Source: Candidatus Aenigmatarchaeota archaeon (GTDB taxonomy: Archaea; Aenigmatarchaeota; Aenigmatarchaeia; QMZP01; JAFGSV01). From it: a stretch of DNA of 64,000 nucleotides. Where the stretch lies: assembly GCA_016931255.1 (NCBI GenBank), contig JAFGFG010000009.1, positions 1 through 64,000 on the forward strand, written 5' to 3'. Position numbers and translations under genes: made by a program. Below, piece after piece: positions 1,849 to 64,000 of this stretch. How positions within the stretch are numbered: position 1 is the stretch's first letter; every line of letters starts with the position of its first letter. Below the pieces are notes generated by a model. That model was not told where the DNA came from and did no database searches. It was given only the letters and a program-made list of their open reading frames with translations.

Positions 1849-1849
1849 G

Positions 1850-47175: not shown

Positions 47176-47358
47176 ATGATGACAGTAAAACTTCAGAGGA
47201 TGGCGAAGTACGCGAACGATGTAGACCTGCTGATGTCACTTGTGACACAGAAGGGCCTGGACCCTTTCGCAGAAGAGAGGAAGAACAGCATGCTCTATCA
47301 GCTCGAGGCTGAGGAGATTACTGCTGACAGCGTTAAAAATCTTATGGAGAATGCTTAA
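47176..47358 (+). CDS. Small helical protein (60 aa), unknown
   Basis: 60 residues, probably two or three helices (KLQRMAKYANDVDLLMSLVTQ, LYQLEAEEITADSVKNLMENA). No motif. Second gene of the cassette, 11 nt after the metallopeptidase, so a partner or inhibitor of a neighbour is possible from position only. Confidence 0.55.
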   Translation: MMTVKLQRMAKYANDVDLLMSLVTQKGLDPFAEERKNSMLYQLEAEEITADSVKNLMENA

Positions 47359-47371
47359 AGGAGTGATTACT

Positions 47372-48295: not shown

Positions 48296-48961
48296 ATGGC
48301 TGATATTCTCACTATGCTGCAGCAGCTTCTCTGCTACGGGAACTACTCGTGCATGCAGGAGTTTCAGCAGTACATGTACCAGCCTGTTGAAGGGCTGTTT
48401 TATGCGATATTCTTTCCCGTTGTTTTCATAATAATTTTCATATACATAATAGCTGGCACTGTGGGCCAGTTCAATAGGGGAATAAGACTTCTTGTGGCAA
48501 TGGCTGTATTTGCTTTCATAATATTACAGGGATGGTACGGATTCTTCATTTCACTGAGCAAGATGTGGCTCATTATCATAGTGCTTTTGGGATTCCTTTG
48601 GATGCTGCTGCATACGTTTGTCGGCAGAGGCCGTGGTGAAGGCACTGCCAAAGGAAGAACAGGCGGCCACGACGGGTTTAAAATCGCTGGTATAGATGTT
48701 GGTGGTGCGGTCTGGAATAAGCTTACTGGCACCACCGGTGTCCAGCTTGAAACGCTTAAAGCGGATATTGATACGCTTGAATCAACACCAGTAGGCATGC
48801 ACGGAATAGATGAGATGACTTCAAGGATAAACGGAAAGCTGCTTGAGCTTAGAGGCGACCCTGCGAAGTACGGCCTTGACAAGGGTAAAGTTGACAAATT
48901 AATGCATAGATACATGGATTTATGTAAGAAAAAGGGTGTGAAGGCGAACCTTCCTAAATAG
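48296..48961 (+). CDS. Membrane protein of the pilus-like locus (221 aa)
   Basis: Three or four hydrophobic segments in residues ~35-110 (IFFPVVFIIIFIYIIAGTVG; LWMLLHTFVG) precede a soluble C-terminal domain of ~110 residues with GIDVGGAVWNKLTG and a helical tail. Two cysteines (CYGNYSC) lie near the N-terminus, probably outside. First of four consecutive membrane-protein genes before the ATPase. Role inferred as part of the envelope machine. Confidence 0.65.
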   Translation: MADILTMLQQLLCYGNYSCMQEFQQYMYQPVEGLFYAIFFPVVFIIIFIYIIAGTVGQFNRGIRLLVAMAVFAFIILQGWYGFFISLSKMWLIIIVLLGFLWMLLHTFVGRGRGEGTAKGRTGGHDGFKIAGIDVGGAVWNKLTGTTGVQLETLKADIDTLESTPVGMHGIDEMTSRINGKLLELRGDPAKYGLDKGKVDKLMHRYMDLCKKKGVKANLPK

Positions 48962-48969
48962 GTGATTAG

Positions 48970-49407
48970 ATGGCACTCGATTTCACAGCACTGGAAACGC
49001 TTCTCCCCTTCCTTCTGATACTCGCTGTTTCATACGGGGCTCTCGAGACAGTGGGAATGTTCAGGAACAAGGCCGTGAAGGCCATAATAGCTGTGGTTCT
49101 CGCGTTCTTTGCTATTTCCAATTCCATGACAGTCACTTACATAAACGGCCTGCTTCCGTATGCAGCCATACTTTTCATAATTTTCTTTGGCATAGGCTTC
49201 GTCAAGAAATCACTCAGCGGTGGGCAGAAGGACAACGAGCTGATAATAATCATCATAGTGCTGGTCATGCTGTTCGTGGGCTCGCTGTACACAACGACAA
49301 GCGATTTCAATATGTACCAGTACAACGAGCTTGTATGGATAGCCGGCATAGCTGTCATAGGTGCGATACTGTATGGCGCATACAGAATGAAAGAGCCTGT
49401 AAGGTGA
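48970..49407 (+). CDS. Polytopic membrane protein (145 aa)
   Basis: About four hydrophobic helices. It begins MALDFTALETLLPFLLILAVSYGALE, a layout also seen in the next two proteins (an amphipathic start, a helix with L-PF-L, then Y-G/S). It lies 8 nt after the previous gene. Probably a paralogue of the products at 49412 and 49798; unknown function. Confidence 0.65.
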   Translation: MALDFTALETLLPFLLILAVSYGALETVGMFRNKAVKAIIAVVLAFFAISNSMTVTYINGLLPYAAILFIIFFGIGFVKKSLSGGQKDNELIIIIIVLVMLFVGSLYTTTSDFNMYQYNELVWIAGIAVIGAILYGAYRMKEPVR

Positions 49408-49411
49408 TTTA

Positions 49412-49747
49412 ATGGCGGCATTCGAGACCATGGTACGGTTTCTTGAGTCACTTGGTGTCTTCAATTACCTTGCTTTCGTTCTTCTTATCACAATTCTCTA
49501 TTACTCTTTCGAATACATTCTCAGGAACATAAAGGCGCTCGAAAAGAGGCAGACTCACAGGATGATACTGGCAGTAGTACTGTCAGTTGCCGTGACTGCG
49601 CTGATGTACGTCATTTTCTTTCCTGTGGCCGGCTCAGTAGGCATGGTTGTCGCTGGTATTGTTTTCATATCTGCGGTTTTCTTCCTTCTGGCTGCAACAG
49701 GCATGAGGCTCGGAGGAATGGACATTCCCTCCCTTTTTCGGAAGTAA
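49412..49747 (+). CDS. Polytopic membrane protein (111 aa)
   Basis: Three hydrophobic helices. The start MAAFETMVRFLESLGVFNYLA resembles that of the 186-residue protein that follows (MGLFETMVQNMQRMEFFQYL). A basic loop LEKRQTHRM separates helices 1 and 2. Separated by 4 nt from the gene before, so co-transcribed. Confidence 0.65.
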   Translation: MAAFETMVRFLESLGVFNYLAFVLLITILYYSFEYILRNIKALEKRQTHRMILAVVLSVAVTALMYVIFFPVAGSVGMVVAGIVFISAVFFLLAATGMRLGGMDIPSLFRK

Positions 49748-49797
49748 CCGGCTCAATACCATGAAAGTTTATAAGTCTTCCCACGCAATAACATTTT

Positions 49798-50358
49798 ATG
49801 GGACTATTCGAAACAATGGTTCAGAACATGCAGAGGATGGAGTTCTTCCAGTATCTCTTCCCATTCCTGCTCGCATTCGCTCTTCTTTACGGGCTTATGC
49901 AGTGGGCATTCAAAGAAAACCTTGGCGGTAGGAGGGTGCATACGCTCATAGCGATTATTCTTTCATTCTTCGTAATGCTTTATTCGAGCTACAACACATG
50001 GCTTTTCGCGCTCCTTACAACCACTTCAGGCATATGGCTTGGGCTTGCAACAGTTGCACTTCTGTTAGTGCTCTTCGCACAGCTCCTTGGCATAGACATA
50101 GGTTCAATGCTGAGTGGCGCCGGGGGAAGCAAATACCCATGGATAAAGTGGATAATCCTCCTCATCATTGTCTGGATCGTTCTGTCAGCGTTCCTTGGAT
50201 ACGCAGGTATGTCAGCATGGCTTCCATACTGGCTTACAGGCAGTGATCTTTGGACAGTGCTTCTCGTAGTCGTCATCATAGGTGCAGTCTTCTACTTCGT
50301 TGGTGAAGACAGCGGCAAATCCAGCGGTGGCAGCGACGATAAGGCGAAACCGAGTTAA
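49798..50358 (+). CDS. Polytopic membrane protein (186 aa)
   Basis: About five hydrophobic segments and a hydrophilic Ser/Asp/Lys tail (GEDSGKSSGGSDDKAKPS). The start LFETMVQNMQRMEFFQYLFPFLLA is shared with its upstream neighbour. No enzyme motif. It ends ~40 nt from the convergent coiled-coil gene. Likely a membrane component of the pilus-like machine. Confidence 0.65.
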   Translation: MGLFETMVQNMQRMEFFQYLFPFLLAFALLYGLMQWAFKENLGGRRVHTLIAIILSFFVMLYSSYNTWLFALLTTTSGIWLGLATVALLLVLFAQLLGIDIGSMLSGAGGSKYPWIKWIILLIIVWIVLSAFLGYAGMSAWLPYWLTGSDLWTVLLVVVIIGAVFYFVGEDSGKSSGGSDDKAKPS

Positions 50359-50398
50359 TTTTTTACACTTTTTCTCTTTATTTCAGAATTAGATGAAG

Positions 50399-51466
50399 CT
50401 ATCTGCTTTTGGGCGGTGCGTATCTCGGGGGCTCACCAGGCTCGTCGTCTTTCTGAGGTTCCGGTGCTTCCCTGGCCTTAGGCTTTTCAAGCGGATTTTC
50501 TGTCATAACCTTCTTCTCAGGAGTCTTCGGAGGCTCGGGAACAGGAGCAGGCGACGAAGCGAACTTCATCTTTCTTATGGATTCAATCATGGGGTTCAGC
50601 GAGCTTTTTACAACCTCTTCAATGGAGTCGATTCTTGCGTTGGTTTCCTCTATGCTTTCTTTCTGAATACCTATATCCTTTTTCAGGTTCATCACCTCAT
50701 CTGGTGATGATGCCCCGCTCTGGGATGATGAATTCTTCATATCACTTTCAATTTTCTCAAGTCTTTCTTCCAGATCGCTGAACCTGACAGCTATTTCTTT
50801 CATTTTTTCATCAGCTATCTCTTCAGTGAGCTCCTCGATGTCTCTTCTTCTGCGCTCCTTGAGTATCCTTGTTCTGTCATCCTTGTCCTTTGGTAGCGGC
50901 GATCTTGCAAAAGGCAGGGGTTCGAGTTCATCCCTTGGCACGGGAGGCGGACCCATTCCGGTGGAGTCTTCCATCCTGTCAATAAAAGCATCAGGTCCCA
51001 TTTTCCTTTCTTTCGGCACATCGTCGATGTCATCCATGTCGTCAAGGTCATCGTCCCACTTGGTTGGCGCAAACTGATTCTTTGGTGCAGCAGGCGGCAT
51101 ATTGAATCCCCTTGGTGAAAAAGGCTCGTCACCCGTCATATCATCAATTTCCGGTTGCTGAGGCGATGGCTGTTCTGGAGACATTGGCGGTATTTGTCTG
51201 GGCTGAAGCGGCCTCTGCGGCTCCTGTGGCATTGCAGGCATCTGTGGAACTCCCTGGGCCGAGCCAGAAGAACCTGACCTCATGGCGTCCTTCATTGCGC
51301 GGTCAACCTCTATGGGGCTGAATCCGTCCTCTCTGAGTGTTTTTACAATCTCCGGTTCCGAGAAGCCCTGAGAAGACATGGAAAGAACTTTCTGAGTGGG
51401 GACACCCCTCCCCCCGGCGGCTGGTGCCGGTGGCGCATTACCCTTCTTTTTCCCCAATCCTAACAT
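50399..51466 (-). CDS. Proline-rich coiled-coil cytoplasmic protein
   Basis: About 355 residues. The N-terminus is glycine/proline-rich, followed by a UBA-like helical motif (GFSEPEIVKTLREDGFSPIEV, ~35-55). A long Pro/Gln/Asp-rich linker precedes a coiled coil (~220-310; DLEERLEKIESDM, ETNARIDSIEEVV) and a charged proline-rich tail. No membrane segment. The coiled coil recalls FlaC/FlaD-type accessory proteins of archaeal motility machines, a structural analogy only. It pairs with a second coiled-coil gene just upstream. ATG 51466 (MLGLGKKKG) fits better than the longer frame. Confidence 0.65.
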   Translation of the reverse strand: MLGLGKKKGNAPPAPAAGGRGVPTQKVLSMSSQGFSEPEIVKTLREDGFSPIEVDRAMKDAMRSGSSGSAQGVPQMPAMPQEPQRPLQPRQIPPMSPEQPSPQQPEIDDMTGDEPFSPRGFNMPPAAPKNQFAPTKWDDDLDDMDDIDDVPKERKMGPDAFIDRMEDSTGMGPPPVPRDELEPLPFARSPLPKDKDDRTRILKERRRRDIEELTEEIADEKMKEIAVRFSDLEERLEKIESDMKNSSSQSGASSPDEVMNLKKDIGIQKESIEETNARIDSIEEVVKSSLNPMIESIRKMKFASSPAPVPEPPKTPEKKVMTENPLEKPKAREAPEPQKDDEPGEPPRYAPPKSR

Positions 51467-51509
51467 AATCAGTACCGCATTTATAATTACTTTCATCTCT
51501 ACTTAAAGA

Positions 51510-51887
51510 TTACTCAGGTGCCTTATCTGGCTGCCCTGCAAGCCGTGGGAGGATTGACTCGAACAGCTTTACTGTCTCCTCAACCCTCTTCAGCTCACTC
51601 TTCTTTACCATGAACTGGAGCTGCTTCACAACCTCCTTCAGTGTGTTATTGACTGTATTCGTTTTCTCGTCGAGAGCTGTCATCTTTTCTTCAATACCCT
51701 TCAGCCTGACATCAAGTGATTCAAGCTTTCCTGAGAACGATTCATCAAGAGAGCTTATCCTGCTGGTGAGAATCCTTTCCCTTTCCTCAATGAGCCTGAG
51801 CCTCTTTGTGTTGTCGTTGACCCTTCCGACGATTTCGTTGACTATCGGCGCTCCGCCCTTCTTCTTTCCTGAAGACTGCTCATTCAT
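51510..51887 (-). CDS. Coiled-coil protein (FlaC/D-like)
   Basis: About 125 residues. A short basic N-terminus (GKKKGG) is followed by a nearly continuous coiled coil (NEIVGRVNDNTKRLRLIEERE ... LKEVVKQLQFMVKK). Short size and lack of other domains resemble FlaC/FlaD-like scaffolds, or partners of the neighbouring coiled-coil protein. It is divergent from the ATPase gene, so the 94-nt gap probably holds both promoters. Confidence 0.65.
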   Translation of the reverse strand: MNEQSSGKKKGGAPIVNEIVGRVNDNTKRLRLIEERERILTSRISSLDESFSGKLESLDVRLKGIEEKMTALDEKTNTVNNTLKEVVKQLQFMVKKSELKRVEETVKLFESILPRLAGQPDKAPE

Positions 51888-51981
51888 GACAGGCATAATA
51901 TCAAACTCCGGTTATTTTTATTTAGTCTGCCACAATATAAAAGTACACAGAGATTTGAACAGCAGTTCAGGTGACCGGTTT

Positions 51982-54228
51982 ATGGCTTCAGGCGAATACA
52001 CGTATGATGAAGACGAGCAGAAGCTCAGGCTCAATTATCTCGGTTCTGCTTTTGGCGCGAGTGTGGAGGATTATGCCGAATGCATGGCAGATGTCATAGA
52101 CAAGATTCTCGAGGTCAAGAGCGTCAGGACAATAATACTGACCAAGGACAGGGAATACGAGTACGGTCCGGACCAGACTAAGATGCTTGTGGAGATATCC
52201 AATGTCATAGAGGATGTCGTCCGTGAGAGGCTCACAGGAAGGATAAAGGCAGCTGACAACCTCCAGAAGCGAATGATACCCGAGATGAACGCGCGTGTTC
52301 AGGAGATTGTGCTGAACCTCCTGAGGCGGGACCCCATAGGCGCCTATGTCGAGGTCATACGCGAGATGAGGCGCGTCAAGATAAAGGCAAAGCATACCAA
52401 TCAGAAGAGCGTTTATGATTTCTACGTGGACTATCTGAAGAATGTTCTCAATGTGCTGAAGACCAAGCTTGAGGCAACACAGATAATAAAGCTCGCAAAG
52501 CCTCACATAGCCGGATATACGCAGGGCGACAGGTCTCTCTACCGTGAGATGTTCGTTCCGAGCATACGGCCTAACTTCATGCTCACCCGTTACATGATAA
52601 CACCTCCTGAGAACGGCAGGTCTGTCAAGAGGTACAATGTAGGCGACACGGAAGTGGAGATTTTCAAGCTTCCTGACAGGGCTGAATACTTCTACTATGT
52701 TCTGCCTCCCGAGTTCATTCTCAGCGAAGAGAAGTATGCTGTGCTGGATTCCGCGCGGAGGTACATGGCTACCCATAGGCCGAAGGATGCTGAATTCGTC
52801 AGAACAGGAAAAATACGCGAGGTCTTCTTTAGCATAGGAAGGGACATGATACGGGAAGTGGCCGACCAGCAGAGGGTGCACCTGACATCAAAGGACATCG
52901 AGCAGCTTGCCACCATACTTACAAGGTATACAGCAGGCCTTGGCGTTCTCGAGATACTGCTTGCTGACGAGAAGATTCAGGACGTGTACGTCAACTCTCC
53001 TGTTGAGTCACAGCCCATACTGATAAACCATTCGGAGTTTGAGGAGTGCAGGACCAATCTCATACCGACGCAGGATGATGCCGAGGCATGGGCTACAAGG
53101 CTGAGGATGCAGTCTGGAAGGCCTCTGGACGAGGCCAATCCTGTATTGGACACTGATGTGTCTGTTCCGGGAGGGAATGCAAGGTTCTGCGTAATCACGA
53201 GAACGCTGTCTCCGCATGGCCTTGGCTTTGCCATAAGGAGGCACAGGGACAAGCCATGGACGCTGCCGCTTTTCATAAACGCCAAGATGCTCACGCCTCT
53301 GGCTGCCGGCACACTTTCATTCCTCATAGACGGCACAGCGAGCATGCTGGTCGCAGGTGGGAGGGGCGCAGGTAAGACATCCATGCTTGCGAGCATAATG
53401 CTTGAGATACTGCCGAAAACAAGGATTGTCACCATAGAGGATACACTTGAACTGCCTGTGGACCAGCTCAGGGACATAGGATATAACATCGAGCGCCTGA
53501 AGTCCCGTTCTGTCCTGACAATGGTGGAAACAGAAGTGGCCTCGGACGAGGCTCTCAGGACTGCGCTAAGACTTGGTGATTCTGCGCTGGTTGTGGGCGA
53601 AGTCAGGTCAACGGAAGCCAGAGCCCTGTACGAAGCCATGAGAATAGGTGCGCTTTCCAATGTGGTTATGGGCACAATCCACGGCGAATCAGCTTATGGT
53701 GTCTTTGACAGGGTCGTGAATGACTTGGAAGTTCCCATGACATCATTCAAGGCCACTGACATAATTCCCATATGCAAGAGCCTCCGTTCTGCTGACGGTC
53801 TCCACCGTTTCAGGCGAATGACAGAGATAACAGAAGTCCGCAAGAAATGGGAAAAGAACCCTGACAAGGAAGGCGGCTTCGTCAACCTTTTCGAATACTC
53901 CGCAAAAGAGGATGAGATGAAGCCTACGGATACACTTGTCAACGGCGAATCCGAGACACTGAACAGGATTTCAAGCTACGTCAGGGAATGGCACGGCGAC
54001 TGGGCAGCTGTGTGGGAAAACATAAAACTCAGGGCTGACATCAAGAAGGCCATGGTGGAAATGAGCATCAGGACGAAACGGCCTGAACTGATGGAGGCGG
54101 AATGGTGCGTGAAGTCGAATTCCATGTTCCACCTTTTCTCAGAAATCACGCAAAAGGATGTCGGGGCAGTTGAGGCAAAGACAGTCTACGATGAATGGCT
54201 CAAGTGGTTCAGGAGCAGCATAAGGTAA
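51982..54228 (+). CDS. Type IV pilus/secretion ATPase (TadA/VirB11/GspE superfamily)
   Basis: 748 residues. A long N-terminal domain (~1-330) precedes the secretion ATPase core. That core has the N2 motif GLGVLEILLADEKIQDVYVNS, Walker A GGRGAGKTS (~458-466), an Asp-box region RIVTIEDTLELP, Walker B ALVVGEVRSTEA and the His box MGTIHGES. It powers assembly of pilin-like filaments together with the adjacent TadC-type protein. The true start is ATG 51982; the frame remains open upstream but only antisense to the coiled-coil gene. Archaeal FlaI and TadA-like enzymes are both possible assignments. Confidence 0.93.
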   Translation: MASGEYTYDEDEQKLRLNYLGSAFGASVEDYAECMADVIDKILEVKSVRTIILTKDREYEYGPDQTKMLVEISNVIEDVVRERLTGRIKAADNLQKRMIPEMNARVQEIVLNLLRRDPIGAYVEVIREMRRVKIKAKHTNQKSVYDFYVDYLKNVLNVLKTKLEATQIIKLAKPHIAGYTQGDRSLYREMFVPSIRPNFMLTRYMITPPENGRSVKRYNVGDTEVEIFKLPDRAEYFYYVLPPEFILSEEKYAVLDSARRYMATHRPKDAEFVRTGKIREVFFSIGRDMIREVADQQRVHLTSKDIEQLATILTRYTAGLGVLEILLADEKIQDVYVNSPVESQPILINHSEFEECRTNLIPTQDDAEAWATRLRMQSGRPLDEANPVLDTDVSVPGGNARFCVITRTLSPHGLGFAIRRHRDKPWTLPLFINAKMLTPLAAGTLSFLIDGTASMLVAGGRGAGKTSMLASIMLEILPKTRIVTIEDTLELPVDQLRDIGYNIERLKSRSVLTMVETEVASDEALRTALRLGDSALVVGEVRSTEARALYEAMRIGALSNVVMGTIHGESAYGVFDRVVNDLEVPMTSFKATDIIPICKSLRSADGLHRFRRMTEITEVRKKWEKNPDKEGGFVNLFEYSAKEDEMKPTDTLVNGESETLNRISSYVREWHGDWAAVWENIKLRADIKKAMVEMSIRTKRPELMEAEWCVKSNSMFHLFSEITQKDVGAVEAKTVYDEWLKWFRSSIR

Positions 54229-54263
54229 TTTTTTTCTTTAAAGAAAACGAACAAATAATTAAC

Positions 54264-56363
54264 ATGTCGTTTTTCAGCAGGAAGAAGAAGGCTCCTCAGG
54301 CACCTGCTTACAGCACCGGCCAGCTTGATCCCAGAATGATAAACATCTCATCAAGGGAGTACAGGCTTTACCGCAGCAAGTCGGAATTAAGGCTGAACTG
54401 GTATGAGCAGCTGGCCAAGTTCGCTGTCGGCATAATAAATGTGAGTTTTGACAAGAAGACCACGGATGACATAAATGCCGCAATAGACTTCACAGGACTG
54501 CGCATAAAGCCGAATGCGCCGACAGCTCTGTTCCTGATGAGCATTATATTCTTCTCGTTCCTCGGAGGATTCCTGTTTGCGCTGAGGATAGTCCCGACAG
54601 CCTATGGAGTGATTGCATCAGTGATACTCGGGCTTGCTGTCGGGTACTTCCTGATGTCGTATCCGAAAAGCCATATGAAGACGCTCCGCATACAGGCAAG
54701 CTCGCAGGTCGTCCTTGCGATACTCTACATGGTGGTGAGCATGAGGATATCGCCGAATGTCGAGCGCGCGCTGAGGTTCACGTCGTCCAACATATCAGGC
54801 ATGCTTGCATGGGACATGAGAAGGCTCCTGTGGGACATAGAGATGGGAAAATACTACTCAGCCAACGAAGCGCTTGCGAATTACATCGTCAAGTGGAAGC
54901 CTGAGAACGAGGAATTCTCGGAAGCGCTGAGAATGATAGTGGATTCGCAGAGCCAGATCCAGGAAAAGGCTGAAAAGACTTTGGACGAGGCGCTCAGGGT
55001 TGTCCTTGAAGGGACGAGGGACAGGATGAAGCACTATGCGCAGGACCTTCAGATGCCTGTCACCATGATTCACATGATGGGCATAGTCCTTCCGATACTC
55101 GGCTCTGTGATGGCTCCGATGGCAGCAATTTTCCTGTCAGACATGATTACGCCATGGCATTTCCTTGCCGGATACGACATACTGCTGCCCATTCTGCTTG
55201 TGTGGTTCATAAACAACACGCTGAGCAAGCGTCCTGTGACATTCTCAAAGATAGACGTCTCGCAGCATCCGAGCCTTCCGCCGCCGGGAAGCTTCATGAT
55301 CAGGAGCGGTAAGAAGAGGATAATAGTGCCCGCATTACCCATAGCGCTCCTTGTGGGGGCCCTCATACTAATAATGCCTGTGCTGTATTTCGCTGAGCAT
55401 TCAGAATTTCTCATAGTCCCGATGGTCGATGACGGCAGTGGAAACATGGTGCCGTCTGAAATCCAGGACCCGGCTCCGGATACGACTCTCCTTATGTCCA
55501 TACTGATAACAGTAGGAGCCGGAGCGTCGCTGTCCATATACTTCCTCCTCTCCAATCTCCAGCGCTCGCGAGTCGAGGCCACTGTATACAAGATGGAATC
55601 TGAATTTGAACTGGCTCTTTTCCAGCTGGGCAACAGGATATCCGGCGGCACACCTCTGGAGATAGCTGTTGAGAAGGCTGCTGTGGATGTGAAGGACATG
55701 GAGATTTCCAATCTCTTCCAGATTGTCCTGAGGAACATGCGCAACTTCGGGATGACATTCGAGAACGCGCTGATGAATCCCCAGAGCGGCGCGCTGAGAT
55801 TCTACCCGAGCAGGCTGATACAGAACGTGATGAGAACCATAACAGACACCGCCAGGAAGGGCGTGCAGTTCGCTTCGGAATCCATGCTCACTGTATCCAA
55901 GTACCTGAAAAGCGTGAGGGAGACACAGGAATACATGAGGACGCTGCTTTCTGAAACCACGAGCAGCATGCAGTTCCAGGCTTATGGAATGGCACCGCTC
56001 GTGAGCGGCCTCATAGTGGCAATGTCCAGCGTCATCATACAGATCATAGGATTCCTCGGCACCAGGCTCAACGAGTTCGGCCTGCAGGACAGCTTCGGCA
56101 TAGACCCGAGCTCTATACTGGGGTCATCAAGTGCTGTGACCCCCGCGATGTTCCAGCTCATAATGGGAACGTACCTCATAGAGGTGATAATAATCCTTGC
56201 CATGTTCGTGACCAAGGTCAACAGGGGGGATGACAAGTCGAGCCAGTGGCTGCTGGCCGGAAAGATGATATTTATAGCTGTGATAATATACTCCATGGTT
56301 GCAATAGGCTCAAGTATGATGTTCGGCAGCATGATAGAGGATGCGATGAGGACACTCGCGTAA
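54264..56363 (+). CDS. Pilus/secretion platform membrane protein (TadC/FlaJ-like)
   Basis: 699 residues. Two similar halves each carry a T2SF-type cytoplasmic domain (first ALRFTSSNISGMLAWDMRRLLW..., second ALFQLGNRISGGTPLEIAVEKA) with groups of membrane helices between and at the end (~9 in all). This matches FlaJ/TadC platform proteins that anchor the ATPase. The basic N-terminus MSFFSRKKKAP is cytosolic. ATG 54264 is 35 nt after the ATPase stop. Confidence 0.9.
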   Translation: MSFFSRKKKAPQAPAYSTGQLDPRMINISSREYRLYRSKSELRLNWYEQLAKFAVGIINVSFDKKTTDDINAAIDFTGLRIKPNAPTALFLMSIIFFSFLGGFLFALRIVPTAYGVIASVILGLAVGYFLMSYPKSHMKTLRIQASSQVVLAILYMVVSMRISPNVERALRFTSSNISGMLAWDMRRLLWDIEMGKYYSANEALANYIVKWKPENEEFSEALRMIVDSQSQIQEKAEKTLDEALRVVLEGTRDRMKHYAQDLQMPVTMIHMMGIVLPILGSVMAPMAAIFLSDMITPWHFLAGYDILLPILLVWFINNTLSKRPVTFSKIDVSQHPSLPPPGSFMIRSGKKRIIVPALPIALLVGALILIMPVLYFAEHSEFLIVPMVDDGSGNMVPSEIQDPAPDTTLLMSILITVGAGASLSIYFLLSNLQRSRVEATVYKMESEFELALFQLGNRISGGTPLEIAVEKAAVDVKDMEISNLFQIVLRNMRNFGMTFENALMNPQSGALRFYPSRLIQNVMRTITDTARKGVQFASESMLTVSKYLKSVRETQEYMRTLLSETTSSMQFQAYGMAPLVSGLIVAMSSVIIQIIGFLGTRLNEFGLQDSFGIDPSSILGSSSAVTPAMFQLIMGTYLIEVIIILAMFVTKVNRGDDKSSQWLLAGKMIFIAVIIYSMVAIGSSMMFGSMIEDAMRTLA

Positions 56364-56390
56364 TTTATACCATAGTTACCAATACTAATT

Positions 56391-59279
56391 ATGATTCTCA
56401 AGGGAGTCCTCGGAACTGAGATGACGCTGGGGAGCTTCACCAAGCTGCTCATGGTCGTCTTTGTAATGATTGGATTCACGCTCTTCATAACAGGCGTTGC
56501 CACGAACATGAACGAGACGACCAGCAAGGCCTGCCAGAAATATCCGGAGCTTCCTTTCTGCAGTGGAAGTGAAGATGACATTTCAGCATTAAATGACAAG
56601 ATTGCGGTGCATTCCACACAGGCTCTCGCATGCGCGATAAAAAGCGAGTGGCTTGGAAGGTCGCAGGAATGCGCCGTTGGAATAAACGACCTTCGCAATA
56701 GTGACGATCTCGCACAGCTTTCTGGAATGGACCTCAGTGACGAGGATTTCTACATTCCCAGTGAATTTGCCAAAGTCGAATGCCATGCGGTAACCACAGT
56801 CGAGAATCCCGGAAAATCCAGAATAATAGAATATGATGGAGGCATAGCCAGCGACAATGTCTGCTACCAGTACGTCGAGGGCACAGGATGGATGTGGAGT
56901 GACTGTGATGAGGAACTCCTTCCATTGTCAGACCAGCACCCCCCCGGCGTGAACAATCTTCCCCTTGTCCACGACTATTTCAGGGACAATGTCATTGCTT
57001 TCGGTAATACAAAGACCGAATCGTACAATTACCTTCTGGGGCTTTTCGAGGGAACGCTGAACGGCAATAACTATGCAGTGCTTGACGACAGCGGGAAGAG
57101 GCTTGTTTACAATGATGACACCGAGAAGATATCCAACGACAGGATAAGAGTGTGGCATTCCATGTCATTGGAGGAATATGAAAGCTCTTCATGGGCAGAT
57201 AAGATTGCCAATGGAAAAGGAGGCTTCTGGGAAGGAGATGACGACAGAATATTCGTGGAATTGATTGAAAGGTCTGGTCCTATTTATATGACATCGGGAA
57301 CAGTGATCCATAAGCTTTATGAGCAACTGGATTATTACACTCCGGGAACTGCAGTCACGCTTGCAACCACGACATGCAAGGTGAGCGACTTCTACCTGCC
57401 CCAGGATTTTGACCAGATAAGGATATTGGGAATTACCATGGATGAGCCGAGAGCATGGGTCGCAGGTTTCGGGGACCCTGAATACATCGTGTACTGGCAG
57501 GACTTCCCCCAGGGAGAAGACTATTCATGGACAAGCCTCGGCACATGGCTTGATTCTGCACTTTTCGTCTTCTTTGCAGGAGCTCCTCTTGGCGCAATGG
57601 TAAAAGGCACAAAATACCTTATCAAGGGGGTCGGGAAGACAGTGATAAGCGAGGCAGGCGGCGCATTGGCATCAAAAGGAGATGATGTGATTTCATCCAT
57701 GTTCAAAACGACCTCAGCAACAGACGAATCCATCCAGTATATAATATACGAAGAGGGCGTGACCAAGGCAACAAGAAGGGCAGTCCTCACAGAAGCTGTC
57801 GAGAAGGGGTTCTTTTCCAAGGTTGTCACCAATATGAACAGCTACTACAAGGGACCGAGCACCACGTGGCTGTTCACCAAGGCTGGCGTGCTGACCGGGG
57901 CTGCCTGGGCGGCTGCCTACATTGACAGCCTCAATGAGAAGTTTATGAAGCAGAAGTCATCGATGGTCCTGAAGATTCCATTCGCTGACCCGCAGCTTTT
58001 CATGATAGAAGAGATGGCATCAGCGCCTGCTGACACGTCTTATGACATATTCGGACCGGATACGTATCTCGGCCGCGAATCCGGCTCATACCCGCTTGGC
58101 ATTGTCAGGCCTGTGATGCTCGACAAGACAAGCACCATCACGCTTACGGATGGAGGAGAAGGCCTTCAGAAGGATACGCTGTTCTATCTTGCATCGCCAT
58201 GCCTTGCAGACCTTGACATAAAAAGGGAAACCATCTACTGCAGCAAGTATCTGTATAACTCAGCTGACCAGACATTCACGTGTTCAGACCCTATCTCAAG
58301 GGAAAGCGCGGAGAAAATGAAGGCACTTGGTTTCGAGGGTGTCAAGCCTTGCGGCTCTGCGCCTATAACTCTTGACGCTTTCCAGAACAACAGGCTTTTC
58401 AATGACAACAACAACGACGGAAAGTGGGATGAGGTTGTTGTCTATGGGCTGATAAATGAGATAGACTGGCTGAAGATAAGGGATATAGACTTCGACGGGA
58501 CCTTCGACGGCTATGAAGCCAAGATAGGCAACAATATCATTGTATCCACTGGTGAGAAAACAGGAAAGATAGACATGGGGCAGGACGGCACGTTCGACTA
58601 CACGTTCACCATCGTTGACAGGACATATGAAGTTGCCGGTTATACAACAGAGATGGAGATAAAGGACATGTCCGGCAATTCTGTCAGCAATTCATGGTCA
58701 TATCGAATGCAGGCGAAGGACCTCGTTGTATTCAGTGCGGTGGACAAGGAAAACATACTTCTGGGGCTTCCCATCGCCAGCGGCACCAATGTTGAAGATA
58801 TGGAATTCACATTCCTTCACGGGACAAGTGCTGAATTCAAGGACCCAGCAGACCCCGGCCCGCATCCGCTGAAGATAACGGATACCACAGGTGACGGTAA
58901 GATAGACACATTTTCAATGGGAAGGATGAGGCTTCTTGTCAGGGACACAACAGGGGACGGCTACTGGAATCGCTATGATGAGGACGATGACGGTCATCCT
59001 GATGTCTACGATTACGACAGGGAATACGGCACCATATACAGCCAATACTGCAGTATAGAAGGCATCACGATCACACCTGAGCTGAAGGAAATAGGCAAGG
59101 GGAATAATTTTTGCTACACCAGAATAAAAGAAGGACAAGCCACAGCAATAATGGTTGGGTCTGCTGTTTTTGGAATTGTACTGGAGCAGTTTACAGGTGG
59201 CGTAGCGTCAGCAATCGTGGTAGGCATAGTCAATACTGGAATCGCGTATGCACAGATGCAGGTCAAGAACTGGCCGTGA
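56391..59279 (+). CDS. Large surface protein (962 aa) with calcium-loop-like repeats
   Basis: An N-terminal membrane helix (~15-37, LMVVFVMIGFTLFITGVAT) is followed by a large extracytoplasmic region with many cysteines. Internal hydrophobic stretches occur near 380-400 and 490-510. Residues ~670-885 contain DxDxDG-type loops (DNNNDGKWDE, DIDFDGTFDG, DTTGDGKIDT, DTTGDGYWNRYDEDDDGHPD), as in thrombospondin type 3 or dockerin-like calcium sites. A C-terminal hydrophobic segment (~915-950) may re-enter the membrane. Gene order places it with the pilus machine, perhaps as an adhesin or tip protein (inference). Confidence 0.7.
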   Translation: MILKGVLGTEMTLGSFTKLLMVVFVMIGFTLFITGVATNMNETTSKACQKYPELPFCSGSEDDISALNDKIAVHSTQALACAIKSEWLGRSQECAVGINDLRNSDDLAQLSGMDLSDEDFYIPSEFAKVECHAVTTVENPGKSRIIEYDGGIASDNVCYQYVEGTGWMWSDCDEELLPLSDQHPPGVNNLPLVHDYFRDNVIAFGNTKTESYNYLLGLFEGTLNGNNYAVLDDSGKRLVYNDDTEKISNDRIRVWHSMSLEEYESSSWADKIANGKGGFWEGDDDRIFVELIERSGPIYMTSGTVIHKLYEQLDYYTPGTAVTLATTTCKVSDFYLPQDFDQIRILGITMDEPRAWVAGFGDPEYIVYWQDFPQGEDYSWTSLGTWLDSALFVFFAGAPLGAMVKGTKYLIKGVGKTVISEAGGALASKGDDVISSMFKTTSATDESIQYIIYEEGVTKATRRAVLTEAVEKGFFSKVVTNMNSYYKGPSTTWLFTKAGVLTGAAWAAAYIDSLNEKFMKQKSSMVLKIPFADPQLFMIEEMASAPADTSYDIFGPDTYLGRESGSYPLGIVRPVMLDKTSTITLTDGGEGLQKDTLFYLASPCLADLDIKRETIYCSKYLYNSADQTFTCSDPISRESAEKMKALGFEGVKPCGSAPITLDAFQNNRLFNDNNNDGKWDEVVVYGLINEIDWLKIRDIDFDGTFDGYEAKIGNNIIVSTGEKTGKIDMGQDGTFDYTFTIVDRTYEVAGYTTEMEIKDMSGNSVSNSWSYRMQAKDLVVFSAVDKENILLGLPIASGTNVEDMEFTFLHGTSAEFKDPADPGPHPLKITDTTGDGKIDTFSMGRMRLLVRDTTGDGYWNRYDEDDDGHPDVYDYDREYGTIYSQYCSIEGITITPELKEIGKGNNFCYTRIKEGQATAIMVGSAVFGIVLEQFTGGVASAIVVGIVNTGIAYAQMQVKNWP

Positions 59280-59309
59280 TTTTTTAACGAGCAAACCCAA
59301 GTAATATCC

Positions 59310-59489
59310 ATGGAAGTCACAATGGGGGTTGTCATAACAGCCATAATAATTCTTGTAGCAGGGCTTGTCTTTGCCACTCTCATATTCGGCTGGAGCGGTG
59401 ATGCCCGTTTATGGATGGAAAGCGTGATTTCTCCATTCCAGGACAGCCTCACCGGCGACAGGGTCACGGACCAGACCGTGAAGCCTTAA
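59310..59489 (+). CDS. Small pilin-like membrane peptide (59 aa)
   Basis: ATG 59310 to TAA 59489. A short N-terminus (MEVTMG) leads into one hydrophobic helix (VVITAIIILVAGLVFATLIF), then a soluble ~30-residue tail. The arrangement resembles an archaeal prepilin with a very short signal (Gly at residue 6), but no clear class III peptidase site is evident. It is in line with the neighbouring pilin-like genes. Confidence 0.6.
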   Translation: MEVTMGVVITAIIILVAGLVFATLIFGWSGDARLWMESVISPFQDSLTGDRVTDQTVKP

Positions 59490-59528
59490 GGTGCATATTT
59501 TTAAGTAATCCCGGCCATAATTATAAGC

Positions 59529-59840
59529 ATGAAAGGACTTTCGATGACGCTGAGCATAGTCATTGTGGCTATAGTTCTTCTCGTGACAGCCTTGGTTGTA
59601 CTTACGATATTCGGCGGGCAGATGTCAAGATTTCTGAGCATTTTTGGTGGAGTTCAGGATGAGGCAGTTCTGCAGAGTGCATGTAATCAGAGATGTGCAT
59701 CCTATTGCATGGGTCATCTGAATGACAACCTGAATGCATATTCTTGGACAAGCATGGGTTCAGTTAAGGATGCCAATGGAAAAGATGCACTGTGTTCCGA
59801 TGTAATGAATGGAATATCAGACCAGTGCACATGCCTGTAA
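59529..59840 (+). CDS. Pilin-like membrane protein (103 aa), cysteine-rich
   Basis: MKGLSMTLSIVIVAIVLLVTALVVLTIFGG gives a short basic start and a single long hydrophobic helix, as in archaeal type IV pilins. The mature part has seven cysteines (CNQRCASYC ... CSDVMNGISDQCTC), probably disulfide-bonded outside. A cleavage site is possible after Gly3 but is not compelling. It lies among co-directional surface-protein genes. Confidence 0.65.
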   Translation: MKGLSMTLSIVIVAIVLLVTALVVLTIFGGQMSRFLSIFGGVQDEAVLQSACNQRCASYCMGHLNDNLNAYSWTSMGSVKDANGKDALCSDVMNGISDQCTCL

Positions 59841-59876
59841 TTCTTATTTTTATTTTCTGTTCTTCATAACAGTTGT

Positions 59877-60530
59877 ATGAAGGCTTCATTTCCCGGCATC
59901 AATACGTGGCTATGGACGATTCTTACCATAATAGTGGTCGCAATGGCTCTGTACTGGGCAATGGGCCAGTTCGACAACATGGAACTGTCAAAAGCAACAG
60001 GAAGCACGGACCTTGCTATAGACACGGTCGTCTACTCAGAGGCGTATCCCCAGGTTTCCCAGAGCCAGATGGTAAGATACCTTCAGGATAACGGTGGGGA
60101 GCAGCTGAAGGACAAGGGACTTGCATTTTACAGGCTCGGTGTCCAGTACAATACTGACCCGGCATTCGCTGTGGCTGTCTCAAGGAAGGAGACATCGCTT
60201 GGGAAGGACACGTGCCAGCACATAAGCAGTGACTGCAACAACTTCTTCTGCATCAAGGACACTACTGGAAATAGTCCCTGCGGCATATGGGCATCATATG
60301 CAACGCCTGAGGACAGCATTGATGCGTTCTACAAGCTTATTGAGTATTACAAGGAAAGGGGGCAGGATACCATAAGCGAGATTGCATGCGGTCCTGGCTC
60401 AGGGTTCAGCCACAGCTCAGGTGATTACTGCTACTGCGAGAAGGGAGGCTCTTTCTGCCCTACATGGGTAAGCGGCACGTCAAGCGTGCCTGCATTCACA
60501 GCGGAAATCCGTAACTATATGGCAGTATGA
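59877..60530 (+). CDS. Membrane-anchored GH73-like glucosaminidase (lysozyme-fold) protein
   Basis: 217 residues. An N-terminal transmembrane helix (~12-29) is followed by a linker and a lysozyme-like domain. AVAVSRKETSLGK places a catalytic-type glutamate at residue 105, and NNFFCIKD (121-128) matches the NNLFGIK element of GH73 N-acetylglucosaminidases. Six or more cysteines suggest disulfides outside the cell. GH73 enzymes cleave the glycan strand of bacterial peptidoglycan. In an archaeon the target may be a foreign cell wall or an unusual own polymer. An M23-like peptidase follows 2 kb downstream, and a VirB1-like role beside the ATPase is conceivable. Confidence 0.78.
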   Translation: MKASFPGINTWLWTILTIIVVAMALYWAMGQFDNMELSKATGSTDLAIDTVVYSEAYPQVSQSQMVRYLQDNGGEQLKDKGLAFYRLGVQYNTDPAFAVAVSRKETSLGKDTCQHISSDCNNFFCIKDTTGNSPCGIWASYATPEDSIDAFYKLIEYYKERGQDTISEIACGPGSGFSHSSGDYCYCEKGGSFCPTWVSGTSSVPAFTAEIRNYMAV

Positions 60531-60556
60531 TATATTAGACCAGTGCAAATATTATT

Positions 60557-60673
60557 ATGGGAAAGATGAAGGCCATAATCGCTGACATGGGAATGGGTAT
60601 GATAGAGCTTATCCTGACAATAGCAGTCATAGCGATAATAACAGGCTATGTCATAATGATGATGTCGTCTTAA
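60557..60673 (+). CDS. Minimal prepilin-like peptide (38 aa)
   Basis: ATG 60557 to TAA 60673. MGKMKAIIADMG|MGMIELILTI shows a type IV prepilin pattern: basic leader, Gly12 before the predicted cleavage, and Glu at +5 of the mature part. The mature peptide would be only 26 residues, little more than the polymerising helix. It sits between the glucosaminidase and a cysteine-rich surface protein, all co-directional. Confidence 0.55.
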   Translation: MGKMKAIIADMGMGMIELILTIAVIAIITGYVIMMMSS

Positions 60674-60703
60674 GTTTTAAGACTGTTTCGCCAAGAATAA
60701 TAT

Positions 60704-61318
60704 ATGAAAAAGGGAAACGAACTGATGGCGAAGCCCCTCATGGCAGTGATGAGCCTGATCCTTTTCATCATGGTGCTGGTTTTCATGTATATCCAGCTCT
60801 CTTCAATCCTTTCTGGACCCTGCTGGAAGGAGACAATGAAGGGGCTTGAATTCTTCAAGAGGGAGACAAACGACGACCCAAGGCTCGTTATGGACCCTGA
60901 ATGCATGGAAAAGACAATCTTCACTTCCAGTCCCGTTGTCTGCAAGCTGGCGTGCAGCAGGATTGATGACGGGGAGAGGATGAGGGAGTGCTCGGCCAAG
61001 TGCTCAGTCAATGCTTCCGACAGCGGAAAGACATTCATAATAGCTGTCCCACTGGACAGGGGGATTCTTAAGAGAACATCGCAGGCTGTAAGCAATCGCA
61101 ATGTCGAATGGATATTTCCAGACAAGATGGAGGTTTTCGTTGCTGACTGTACAATAAGCGACCTGGCAGGATTCACCGGCGAAGACGGGAACAGCGTCTG
61201 CACGAAGGACGGCAATTCGTGGGAATGCTTCCCACAGGAAGAATCTGCGACATACCTGCTCAAGATGACAGTCAGCACAGGAGACATTTGCACCATTGAA
61301 GGGCTAAGGACTGTTTAG
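60704..61318 (+). CDS. Single-helix cysteine-rich surface protein (204 aa)
   Basis: A short basic N-terminus, one membrane helix (~12-35, MAVMSLILFIMVLVFMYIQL), then an outside domain with about ten cysteines (CWKETM, CMEK, CKLACSRIDDGERMRECSAKC). The layout matches minor pilins or pilus-associated proteins, but no family is recognised. 13 nt precede the next gene. Confidence 0.65.
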   Translation: MKKGNELMAKPLMAVMSLILFIMVLVFMYIQLSSILSGPCWKETMKGLEFFKRETNDDPRLVMDPECMEKTIFTSSPVVCKLACSRIDDGERMRECSAKCSVNASDSGKTFIIAVPLDRGILKRTSQAVSNRNVEWIFPDKMEVFVADCTISDLAGFTGEDGNSVCTKDGNSWECFPQEESATYLLKMTVSTGDICTIEGLRTV

Positions 61319-61331
61319 CGTTTGTGGTCTT

Positions 61332-61766
61332 ATGGAAAGCAGCAGAAGCATGGTTGCGGTTATATTCGCCCTGATACTCGTAATGATATACTGGGTTGCG
61401 TGCGTATACGTACTTAACCCAATCCTTCGCGCGGAAAGCTCGTATGTTGAGCAGAAGATGTCATTCTACATAGATACGATGTCTTCTGTGAGCAGCGGCT
61501 CAGTCAAAGTGGAGATACCAAAGAACACTGTCAGCGCAATAAGCGTTGAGAAGCTCGCTAAAGGTGATTACGATGACTACACGATTCCTGAAGACGGCTG
61601 GTACGTGGTGGTAGCATACAGGATTGCAGGAACTCTGAACAAAGGCGTAAGCAGGATAAACTCGTACCCTGATGACGACAATATCAGAAAGACATTTACG
61701 TCCCCTGAAGACTTCTGCATAATAAAGAATGCGGACATGGATTACGCGGTGGTGGGAAAATGCTGA
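61332..61766 (+). CDS. Single-helix surface protein (144 aa)
   Basis: An N-terminal hydrophobic segment (MVAVIFALILVMIYWVACVYVL) and a soluble domain of ~110 residues with two late cysteines. Overlaps the next gene by 7 nt, so translation is probably coupled. No family recognised; likely a pilus-like or envelope component from context. Confidence 0.65.
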   Translation: MESSRSMVAVIFALILVMIYWVACVYVLNPILRAESSYVEQKMSFYIDTMSSVSSGSVKVEIPKNTVSAISVEKLAKGDYDDYTIPEDGWYVVVAYRIAGTLNKGVSRINSYPDDDNIRKTFTSPEDFCIIKNADMDYAVVGKC

Positions 61767-62593
61767 AAGGGCAGCTGGACATAGACATAGAGTTCATGGG
61801 AGGAACCATAATATTCGTGTTCTTCGCGATGATATTCTTCTCGATGCTTCTCTTCCCGATAGTCGCCAACAGCAGCGTGACATCAAGGGTTCACAATTCA
61901 GTGGACCAGCTCTCTTTCTCAAACCTAGCTGAGGCTTACATAGAGAGGGACTACGCCAACGAGAACGGAGTGCCGGATTTCCTCAGGATGTCTCTGGACA
62001 CGAACCTGCTTAAATCGTTCCGTAATTTTGTGCTTTTCGAGCAGATTCCGTCAGGAAGGTTCATATTTCCAAAATATTCAGTGATGAGCATGAATCCGGA
62101 TGATTCGATCGGGCATGATACATACGGCATAACGTGGACTGGTTTCGAGAACACAAAGCCCGGAGACATACTGATACCTGTCGGCAAGATTTCGCTTGTC
62201 GATGTCCACAGGAATGGCTCGCTTGTCATAATCGATGTGTATGATTATCCCAGATGCTCGACAGGCACTTCAGAAAGAACCGGCCTCACAGTGTATCCGC
62301 TGTGTTCATCAGTGTCTGAAGCCAGTATCGTAGACTCGGAATCAGCACGCGACGAACTCATACTTTCAGTCATAAACGGCGCATTTCCCGGCACGGTATT
62401 CTTCATGCGCGCAGCCAAAGACATAATGGTTTCTGACATCATGCAATCCTTCAAGGGATATGTGAGCGCGACGTGCGAAGACAGCGGGGAACATAATGTT
62501 TGCATAAGAAAATTTAGTGATTACACTACTGCCACGAGGATTCATGTTGAAATTACTCCAGGAGGTTTCTTTTGGTATGAAAGCGGCGATTAA
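61760..62593 (+). CDS. Single-helix surface protein (277 aa)
   Basis: MLKGQLDIDIEFMGGTIIFVFFAMIFFSMLLF gives an amphipathic start and one membrane helix (~15-35). The soluble outside domain has a few cysteines (YPRCSTG, YPLCSS, ATCEDSGEHNVC). A Gly-Gly pair precedes the helix. No family recognised. It overlaps the M23 gene by 17 nt. Confidence 0.65.
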   Translation: MLKGQLDIDIEFMGGTIIFVFFAMIFFSMLLFPIVANSSVTSRVHNSVDQLSFSNLAEAYIERDYANENGVPDFLRMSLDTNLLKSFRNFVLFEQIPSGRFIFPKYSVMSMNPDDSIGHDTYGITWTGFENTKPGDILIPVGKISLVDVHRNGSLVIIDVYDYPRCSTGTSERTGLTVYPLCSSVSEASIVDSESARDELILSVINGAFPGTVFFMRAAKDIMVSDIMQSFKGYVSATCEDSGEHNVCIRKFSDYTTATRIHVEITPGGFFWYESGD

Positions 62594-63632
62594 CCTCATA
62601 GGCCTGGTGACAATAGGCACAGCACTGGCAGCTGTTATAATCATGATACACGGTGTTCCGCATGCATCTGAGATGATCAAGGTGAACTCAGAGACATCGG
62701 CCTATATCAACGTCAACGACGAGACATCGAAGCTCATGCCGATACTCGAATCAGGCAACATCAGCTTTGCTGCAATAGACCAGCTTGCATGCGATGTCCT
62801 CGGAATCACATACCACTATCAGGATGACTACATCGATGCTGTACTCAAATCCATGGATGCAGGAATCATAGTTTACGCAGGAGGTATGGAGAAGAAAACA
62901 TACGGCAATGAGAAGAGCGACAAACTGTTCGCTGATATACCTCTTCCCGGAGGGAAAATCGGAAACATCGCGCTCATGGTCGACATACCGCGGTCAATTT
63001 CAGAGGCAAGCTTCGGCTCCAATTGGATATGGCCGCTTGAGACACTCACCGGTATGCATGTCAGTCACTGCTACGGCGAATACAGAGAGCTCAGCGACGG
63101 CTCAACCTATACGCATTCCGGTGTGGACCTTGGCGGTAATATCGGAGACAATGTGCATGCCGTGGCTGACGGAGAAGTCATATTCGTATGCGATAATGAT
63201 GAGAGAGAACTGACAGATGAGGAGAAGAACGCACGCATAAAGGGTAACTGCAGCGGATACGGTAACAACATAATAATAAAGCACGCTGGCCTGTATGCCA
63301 GATATTCGCATCTGCACACGGAAAATGGCGTGCTCGTCTCAGTAGGGGACATAGTCACGCAGAATCAGATTATTGGCAGGATGGGAAGCACGGGCCGTTC
63401 CTTCGGCGCGCATCTCGATTTCAAGGTGTATTCATACGAACCCTATGCCAATGGCGCGTCAGGATATGATGCCAATATAGACCCACTCTGCATGTACACG
63501 CCTGAATATCTTAAGAACGTAGTGAAGCTCACGTACGAGGAAAATGACAAGGACTGCCAGCAGTCGAAGCTGTGCATAAAGTACAGGCCGTCCATTTACA
63601 CAGACATTGTCGAGGAGGACCTTACAATATAG
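62577..63632 (+). CDS. Membrane-anchored M23 (LytM-like) peptidase-fold protein
   Basis: 351 residues. An N-terminal membrane helix (~5-25), a linker domain, and from ~165 an M23 domain: THSGVDLGG (H180, D184), YARYSHLHTENG (H245) and SFGAHLDFKV (H279-x-D281). In M23 endopeptidases the last motif is normally H-x-H, so the second zinc-ligand histidine is aspartate here, and activity may be altered. M23 enzymes cleave peptide cross-links of peptidoglycan. A strong AGGAGGT before ATG 62577 fixes the start. It belongs to the same run as the GH73-like protein. Confidence 0.82.
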   Translation: MKAAINLIGLVTIGTALAAVIIMIHGVPHASEMIKVNSETSAYINVNDETSKLMPILESGNISFAAIDQLACDVLGITYHYQDDYIDAVLKSMDAGIIVYAGGMEKKTYGNEKSDKLFADIPLPGGKIGNIALMVDIPRSISEASFGSNWIWPLETLTGMHVSHCYGEYRELSDGSTYTHSGVDLGGNIGDNVHAVADGEVIFVCDNDERELTDEEKNARIKGNCSGYGNNIIIKHAGLYARYSHLHTENGVLVSVGDIVTQNQIIGRMGSTGRSFGAHLDFKVYSYEPYANGASGYDANIDPLCMYTPEYLKNVVKLTYEENDKDCQQSKLCIKYRPSIYTDIVEEDLTI

Positions 63633-63640
63633 GTGATGCT

Positions 63641-64000
63641 ATGCGAAAAGGAAATGTTGCTAATATAGTGTATGCAGCGGGGTTGGTTATAATGTTTATT
63701 ATAAGCGTTTATTACATTCTTCCTGCTCTCTCGAACACTGATAAGAATCCTGTCATGGTGATGGTGGACAATACAGTTTACCTACTCAAGGATTCCGCAG
63801 AGGTCGCGAAGTCATTTGTGGACAATTCAGCCCGGTATTCACTCTATCAGGCGGTGTATTCCAATTCACTGAAAGGCGGCATGAATCAGACAGTAAATGC
63901 TGTCAGCATAGGCGGTACAACATATGAGCTATGGTATGACGGTGCAGATGTCTCGCCTGACGAGGTGAGAATAAAGGAAGAGCTGCGCAAGACTTTCAGT
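63641..64000 (+). CDS. Single-helix surface protein, 5' part (runs past window end)
   Basis: ATG 63641 continues open to the window edge (120 codons seen). MRKGNVANIVYAAGLVIMFIISVYYILPAL gives a basic start and one membrane helix, followed by a soluble outside part. AGGTGA precedes ATG by a few bases. The surface-protein run continues beyond the window. Confidence 0.7.
   Translation, partial: MRKGNVANIVYAAGLVIMFIISVYYILPALSNTDKNPVMVMVDNTVYLLKDSAEVAKSFVDNSARYSLYQAVYSNSLKGGMNQTVNAVSIGGTTYELWYDGADVSPDEVRIKEELRKTFS

Follow-up and report, generated by a model that had tools for sequence, protein, structure and literature searches.

The window analysed here is a 64,000-nucleotide stretch of DNA from a Candidatus Aenigmatarchaeota archaeon of the DPANN group, namely bases 1-64000 of a 323-kb contig in an archaeal genome of 929 kb that is 93% complete (G000). 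At its right end lies a predicted pilus- and secretion-like locus, which consists of four genes for polytopic membrane proteins, two coiled-coil genes on the minus strand, a secretion ATPase, a platform protein, a 962-aa (amino acids) surface protein and a run of one-helix proteins of 103, 217 (GH73-like), 204, 144, 277, 351 (M23) and ~277 aa (Table 1). Our central result is that, across related genomes, orthologous one-helix scaffolds of this locus exchange one predicted murein-enzyme domain for another.

The locus spans 48296-64471, and its final gene (63641-64471), followed by Alba and enolase, overruns the window end by 471 bases. A first-pass annotation of 48296..64000 had listed the genes of this region and all of them are present; its limits need extending by one more one-helix gene, which crosses the window end to 64471. 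The two enzymes it proposed fared differently, as the M23 domain was recovered over its cut-off (E = 7.3e-19) and the GH73 domain remained sub-threshold (26.2 versus 30.2 bits). In G001, a genome of the same genus, every gene of the locus is matched in identical order. Alignment with relatives places the most likely start of the ATPase at 51982 (748 aa) and not at 51610. The M23 gene starts at 62577 (351 aa), matching the database entry of the same protein, and overlaps the preceding gene.

Table 1. Coordinates of the genes of the pilus-like locus and of one conserved neighbour
Feature	Position	Strand	Evidence and remarks
301-aa conserved neighbour, possibly part of the locus	47351..48256	+	orthologues directly upstream in G001, G002, G004
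Polytopic membrane protein, 221 aa	48296..48961	+	orthologues occupy this position in L034, L055, L056; more distant in L064
Polytopic membrane protein, 145 aa, paralogous with the next two	48970..49407	+	profile of one finds the others
Polytopic membrane protein, 111 aa	49412..49747	+	same paralogous family, by profile
Polytopic membrane protein, 186 aa, most widely retained member of the family	49798..50358	+	neighbours the ATPase in L059-L066
Cytoplasmic coiled-coil protein, 365 aa	50399..51496	-	adjoins the ATPase in L059-L066
Small coiled-coil protein, 128 aa	51510..51896	-	adjoins the ATPase in L059-L066
Secretion ATPase, 748 aa, ArlI/TadA/VirB11 superfamily	51982..54228	+	T2SSE 4.5e-16
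Platform protein, 722 aa, polytopic	54195..56363	+	weak T2SSF; orthologues after the ATPase in L034, L055-L057, L060-L064, L066
Surface protein, 962 aa, hydrophobic helix near each end	56391..59279	+	no match in Pfam scan; other genomes have relatives close to the one-helix operon, frequently on the other strand
One-helix pilin-like protein, 103 aa	59529..59840	+	MKGLS leader; L034, L055, L056 have orthologues in this slot
One-helix protein with GH73-like (glucosaminidase) domain, ~60126-60356	59877..60530	+	GH73 profile; E105 kept
One-helix scaffold, 204 aa, without enzyme domain	60704..61318	+	orthologues across the order
One-helix scaffold, 144 aa; slot SLT-bearing in many relatives	61332..61766	+	SLT in L035, L037, L041
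One-helix scaffold, 277 aa; SLT in G002 orthologue	61760..62593	+	profile and domain scan
One-helix scaffold with C-terminal M23 (~63111-63437)	62577..63632	+	HxxxD kept, HxH is HLD; slot holds M15 in G002, G003
Last one-helix scaffold, ends at 64471	63641..64000	+	relatives carry SLT, VanY, PG-binding or PKD-YkuD-Amidase_3

Orthologous scaffolds carry different murein-enzyme domains

Among relatives, the scaffolds carry SLT, M23, M15, VanY, Amidase_3, YkuD, a peptidoglycan-binding domain, or none of these. The slot that holds M23 in the window (M23-slot) has M23 in 17 genomes and Peptidase_M15_4 in G002 (9.5e-17) and G003 (1e-15); in others, e.g. G004 and G021, it encodes a short protein of ~130-180 aa without an enzyme. 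The M23-slot gene of G014 is cut by contig ends (L124, L117), and a GH73 piece ends in the terminal strand of the slot. This shared strand suggests, without proving it, that both pieces form one gene, and the slot of G014 thus probably carries GH73 across the contig break. The 144-aa slot is bare in G000-G004 and holds SLT in G012 (1.3e-15), G008 (1.3e-14) and G022, by position also in G011, G013, G014, G018, G019, G020 and G028; the weak SLT match of G010 (0.0053) is below the cut-off. The same applies to SLT in the 277-aa slot of G002 (4.8e-4; 20.1 bits, cut-off 21.3).

The last slot varies in its architecture between PKD followed by YkuD (1.5e-18) and Amidase_3 (6.7e-44) in G001, VanY in G036 (2.2e-37), SLT in G027, G021 and G013 (where the gene is split over two contigs) and PG_binding_1 in G012 and G014. 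A domain scan found no murein family in the last slot of G004, G006, G025, G026, G029, G035, G038, G011 and G019. In addition, separate one-helix proteins carry GH73 in four genomes of the window's genus and SLT in G017. Four stretches were kept out of this comparison: L057, which is too short, L058, the contig of G010 on which the ATPase stands alone, and L059 and L064, where the profiles find no one-helix operon after the ATPase.

The M23 domains are joined to their scaffolds in two ways. In all 14 complete rows from other families, M23 precedes the terminal IPLPGG-like strand of the scaffold, whereas the two M23 rows from the window's genus have the domain after this strand. Two such different joins argue for separate captures. 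In profile scans, the GH73 and M23 proteins of the window match catalytic domains only, with no wall-binding domain. A protein search with the window M23 gave 516 matches; among the 120 listed were the protein itself and six close relatives (E below 1e-50), and those weaker matches that bear an organism name are bacterial.

Large reading frames that combine SLT and M23 (578-2035 aa) occur in other families of the class (G083:C16, G117:C3, G124:C61, G129:C33). None of them lies within 15 kb of the ATPase.

Catalytic residues are kept in most copies

We next to the domain content compared the residues that we take to be catalytic in M23, SLT, GH73, YkuD and amidase domains. The M23 zinc ligands of HxxxD are kept in 17 of 17 rows, and of the 16 rows that cover the HxH motif 13 have HLH and three (window, G001, G027) have HLD. 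The SLT glutamate is present in all 14 rows that cover the position (of 16), the GH73 glutamate E105 in six of six aligned copies, the window GH73 having three orthologues in its genus, and the YkuD and amidase motifs of G001 are intact. Conservation of the catalytic sites, a check put forward in the first-pass annotation, therefore holds for most aligned copies and breaks down at the last zinc-site His of the window M23, which is Asp. Because of this HLD motif we speak of an M23-type domain only and make no claim that the window copy cuts. A predicted model of the full M23-slot protein is of low overall confidence (64.4), and its enzyme part matches known M23 peptidases; the window GH73 has no relative among solved chains at E 0.1.

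The enzymes concentrate at a syntenic one-helix operon

In the 41 genomes of the order, 36 of 60 matches to M23, SLT, GH73 or M15_4 share a contig with the last-slot gene and are at most 8 kb away from it (M23 17/24, SLT 13/26, GH73 4/7, M15_4 2/3). Random placement predicts 1.22 of 60 and gave at most 8 over 100,000 simulations, and chance co-location is thus rejected. At least one such match is found nearby in 21 of the 38 operon-bearing genomes of the order.

Using profiles, we found the M23-slot and last-slot genes adjacent in 12 further loci of the order (L035-L044, L047, L048). They are preceded by the 277-aa gene in 11 and by the 204-aa gene in 10 of these, and in 7 Alba is the following gene; 6 of the 12 have a relative of the surface protein nearby, several of these on the opposite strand. 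Another 17 stretches of the order were inspected, 14 of which show at least three of five genes (204, 144, 277, M23-slot, last-slot), the remaining three being contig pieces or weak. The last-slot protein is present in 38 of 41 genomes of the order and in 10 of the 10 good ones. The gene set is thus syntenic in relatives, a check that the first-pass annotation had proposed. Outside the order, one-helix genes follow the platform gene in L060, L061 and L066, and an M23 gene closes the row on the opposite strand; among these three, the 204-aa profile matches in L060 and L061 only. In L051, likewise outside the order, an M23 gene stands between one-helix genes and Alba.

The ATPase and the one-helix operon form a single locus in G000, G001, G002, G004 and G006; elsewhere they lie on other contigs or far apart. 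In G010 and G012 the ATPase stands without other profile genes, and in G017 it is accompanied by coiled-coil and polytopic genes. G003 (L065/L114/L115) was used for domain content and not for synteny of the platform gene, which is broken there.

A second, predicted pilus-like system

The secretion ATPase named in the first-pass annotation is confirmed by a T2SSE match over cut-off (E = 4.5e-16). It was detected in 141 of 156 genomes of the phylum at a threshold of E<=1e-100, including 39 of the 39 best genomes. With 52-82% identity to the window copy at nine other loci it is far more conserved than the one-helix proteins, the last of which is 15-33% identical in twelve others. When named genomes were scanned using the ATPase alignment, 15 loci came up, 13 of them strong and labelled Candidatus Aenigmatarchaeota (11), 'archaeon' (1) or 'Nanoarchaeota' (1); L067 and L068, weak bacterial matches, were dropped. 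Against the NCBIfam FlaI model the ATPase scores 8.9e-41, far below the model cut-off, which sets it apart from the archaellum. The gene of the putative platform protein is present, its T2SSF match being weak (E = 0.0082) and under the Pfam cut-off; its position after the ATPase and the nine predicted helices of its orthologues agree with this role. The window's genome encodes one A24 prepilin peptidase over cut-off (G000:C2:222479), and [KR]G occurs near the helix start in 94 of 159 rows of operon proteins compared with 7 of 26 control membrane open reading frames.

A separate pilus locus with a FlaI-related ATPase lies ~10 kb beyond the locus (L032:11256-15671; G000:C2:74256-78671), and the window locus is therefore a second system. 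This other ATPase matches the FlaI model at 6e-118 (394.9 bits, cut-off 550), so still below it, and its locus encodes class-III-leader-like pilins.

The ATPase of G016 (L150, G016:C5:5700-9700, 91-3939, minus strand) contains a ~500-aa insert in its TIED-TLELP box, which we take to be intein-like from its HINT and LAGLIDADG-like motifs and its HN/T end. At least 16 genomes have ATPase frames over 1,200 aa in which the match breaks near this box, G016 being the one that was read; the window ATPase is free of such an insert. In G003 (CP070804) the platform gene is found in two pieces ~300 kb apart (L114:3932-5935, L115:12258-12854), its start by the ATPase and most of the remainder by the surface protein, either because a rearrangement broke the gene or because the assembly is faulty there.

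A putative wall-opening machine directed at bacteria

The gene set, its synteny, the domain swaps, the mostly conserved catalytic residues and the lack of a transpeptidase match in 156 genomes are what can be read from the predicted genes. With moderate confidence, we interpret the conserved Aenigmatarchaeota cluster as encoding a predicted machine of type IV pilus-like kind whose one-helix membrane subunits bear interchangeable domains of murein-cutting families and which likely opens the wall of a bacterial partner or prey. Acting through the platform, the ATPase would assemble or move the one-helix proteins, and their C-terminal domains would come to lie outside the cell, as minor pilins or as arms near the 962-aa surface protein. 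Where the machine touches a partner, two kinds of cutter would locally loosen the partner murein, one acting on glycan (GH73 in the window, SLT elsewhere) and one on peptide (M23 in the window, elsewhere M15, VanY or amidase), and the apparatus could then keep its grip, cross the wall or take material in. The simplest use would be to open or grip a bacterial wall locally where the cells meet; attachment, uptake, injection and killing cannot be told apart by sequence. Breaching of a partner or prey wall, as suggested in the first-pass annotation, thus gains support mainly from the swapping on orthologous scaffolds, the breaching itself being inferred. The alternative offered there, remodelling of an unusual envelope, finds no support because the swapped-in domains are of murein types. 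A bolder version, to which we lend somewhat less than even credence, holds that this is a wall-piercing contact machine with exchangeable murein-cutting tips that evolved against bacteria, and that bacteria are hosts or prey of a whole DPANN order.

Several observations weigh against this interpretation. In the M23 domains of the window, G001 and G027, Asp replaces the last zinc-site His, the G019 row is without the loop His, and the window copy may be weak or inactive. The GH73 match of the window (E = 1.4e-5, 26.2-27.1 bits) stays under the cut-off of 30.2, and the G001 copy is lower, at 17.2 bits. No M23, SLT, GH73 or M15_4 match lies near 17 of the 38 operons, where contig ends may hide some; in 7 of these 17 genomes the last-slot protein was scanned and held no murein family, and the machine seems to work without cutters in some genomes. 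Moreover, 24 of the 60 enzyme matches are located away from the operon, and outside the order the association is weak: 7 of 60 M23, 5 of 42 SLT, 0 of 4 GH73 and 0 of 1 M15_4 matches lie within 15 kb of the ATPase. Of the 35 order genomes in which both the ATPase and the one-helix operon occur, just 5 have them within 20 kb of each other, and where they are unlinked the operon could depend on the ATPase of the other pilus locus. A predicted model of the bare scaffold (mean pLDDT 73.9) had no Foldseek match at E<=0.001; its matches are weak, the best being to sensor domains, with no clear pilin match, and the missing of pilin chains from them proves nothing either way. Finally, Mur_ligase_M matches in 24 of 156 genomes of the class, including G001 and G003.

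Four alternatives deserve to be weighed. The domains could mainly bind, forming an adhesin that grips murein or murein fragments while catalysis decays. We consider this unlikely, albeit the PG_binding_1 inserts of G012 and G014, the HLD motif of the window M23 and the weak GH73 score would fit such a role: catalytic residues are kept in most M23, SLT and GH73 copies as well as in the amidase and YkuD of G001, and binding alone needs no repeated gain of different enzyme families. The locus could also be a short-range antibacterial weapon or serve murein scavenging, its enzymes killing neighbours or releasing wall fragments as food and its machine making no passage through the wall. Archaeal murein hydrolases that kill bacteria are reported (PMC12352652), and the 24 of 60 enzyme matches outside the operon point in the same direction; however, the N-terminal helix on conserved scaffolds suggests anchoring over free secretion, and we regard this as decidedly unlikely.

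Very unlikely in our view is a non-bacterial target, be it pseudomurein in a methanogen host or the envelope of the archaeon itself. SLT, Amidase_3, VanY/M15 and YkuD act on MurNAc or D-amino-acid bonds, which are present in bacterial murein but absent from pseudomurein. The penicillin-binding Transpeptidase (PF00905), the chief cross-linking enzyme of bacterial walls, has a match in 0 of 156 genomes, with 10 of 14 control genomes positive, and Mur_ligase_M has none in the window's genome, the search for wall synthesis covering these two families only. Own wall synthesis is thus not supported, and the check for mur genes put forward in the first-pass annotation comes out in favour by these two results, though Mur_ligase_M matches occur elsewhere in the class. 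Those matches fall at a single place in 23 of the 24 positive genomes (two in G096), and the one that was read (G001, L110) looks like a folate synthase by its motif. We know of no established partner of Aenigmatarchaeota. In favour of an archaeal target, all cultivated DPANN archaea are reported to need contact with an archaeal host (PMC11291902). That wall enzymes and pilus-like genes are mere neighbours sharing an operon without common function is scarcely credible despite the 17 of 38 operons that showed none of these enzymes, as scaffolds of the operon itself bear fused enzyme domains in no fewer than four slots and 36 of 60 matches lie near the operon against 1.2 expected.

Relation to known systems

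VirB1-type enzymes are murein cutters that are encoded with a bacterial type IV secretion machine and open the wall locally. The locus is alike in that a murein cutter is encoded alongside a secretion machine. However, VirB1 opens the cell's own wall, whereas here no own murein is evident and several families rotate on the scaffolds. A wall-opening machine of the kind we favour would be an archaeal counterpart of these secretion-system enzymes, aimed outward and not at its own wall. The rotation of murein-fitting domains on one conserved machine points to bacteria, and the enzymes encoded in a given genome may thereby indicate what wall chemistry its partner has.

Archaeal type IV pili and the archaellum (ArlI/ArlJ; PMC4858521) share with the locus the ATPase, the polytopic platform (here putative), the run of one-helix proteins and the surface protein, and earlier work has drawn DPANN pilin islands in which TadC and surface proteins accompany diverse pilins of unknown kind (PMC6393860). 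In contrast to archaeal pili, one-helix proteins here carry murein enzymes, and there are an extra polytopic family and two coiled-coil proteins. The word 'peptidoglycan' is absent from the main text of both papers.

Large proteins with lytic transglycosylase domains are described from Pacearchaeota and Woesearchaeota, for which a link to a bacterial partner or prey was proposed (PMC8204110, PMC9723730). Those proteins are described as large and extracellular, whereas ours are small scaffolds of a pilus-like operon in Aenigmatarchaeota. Modular archaeal peptidoglycan hydrolases with M23 domains, domain shuffling and antibacterial use are likewise known (PMC12352652). They combine a catalytic with a wall-binding domain and are patchily distributed in haloarchaea and others, unlike the window proteins with their catalytic domains only; the word 'pili' is absent from the main text of that paper. 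Among the papers listed in a literature search of limited coverage, with no bioRxiv preprints and few subscription journals, none connects such enzymes with a pilus-like locus in Aenigmatarchaeota. What seems new is this connection, together with the swapping of the enzymes on shared scaffolds; murein-cutting proteins and pilin islands of DPANN archaea are each known separately.

Further observations in and near the window

Two proteins with an HExxH motif are encoded at 46553-47164 (HEYAH) and at 25934-26698 on the minus strand (HETFH). The former has no match in the Pfam scan, and G001, G002 and G004 conserve it immediately before the locus. By eye, we recognised a LAGLIDADG-type endonuclease-like gene (3279-4628) between two aminoacyl-tRNA synthetase-like genes. 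Also by eye, genes resembling type III RuBisCO, AMP/thymidine phosphorylase and ribose-1,5-bisphosphate isomerase follow one another at L032:5318-8970 and would make up the archaeal nucleotide-salvage pathway.

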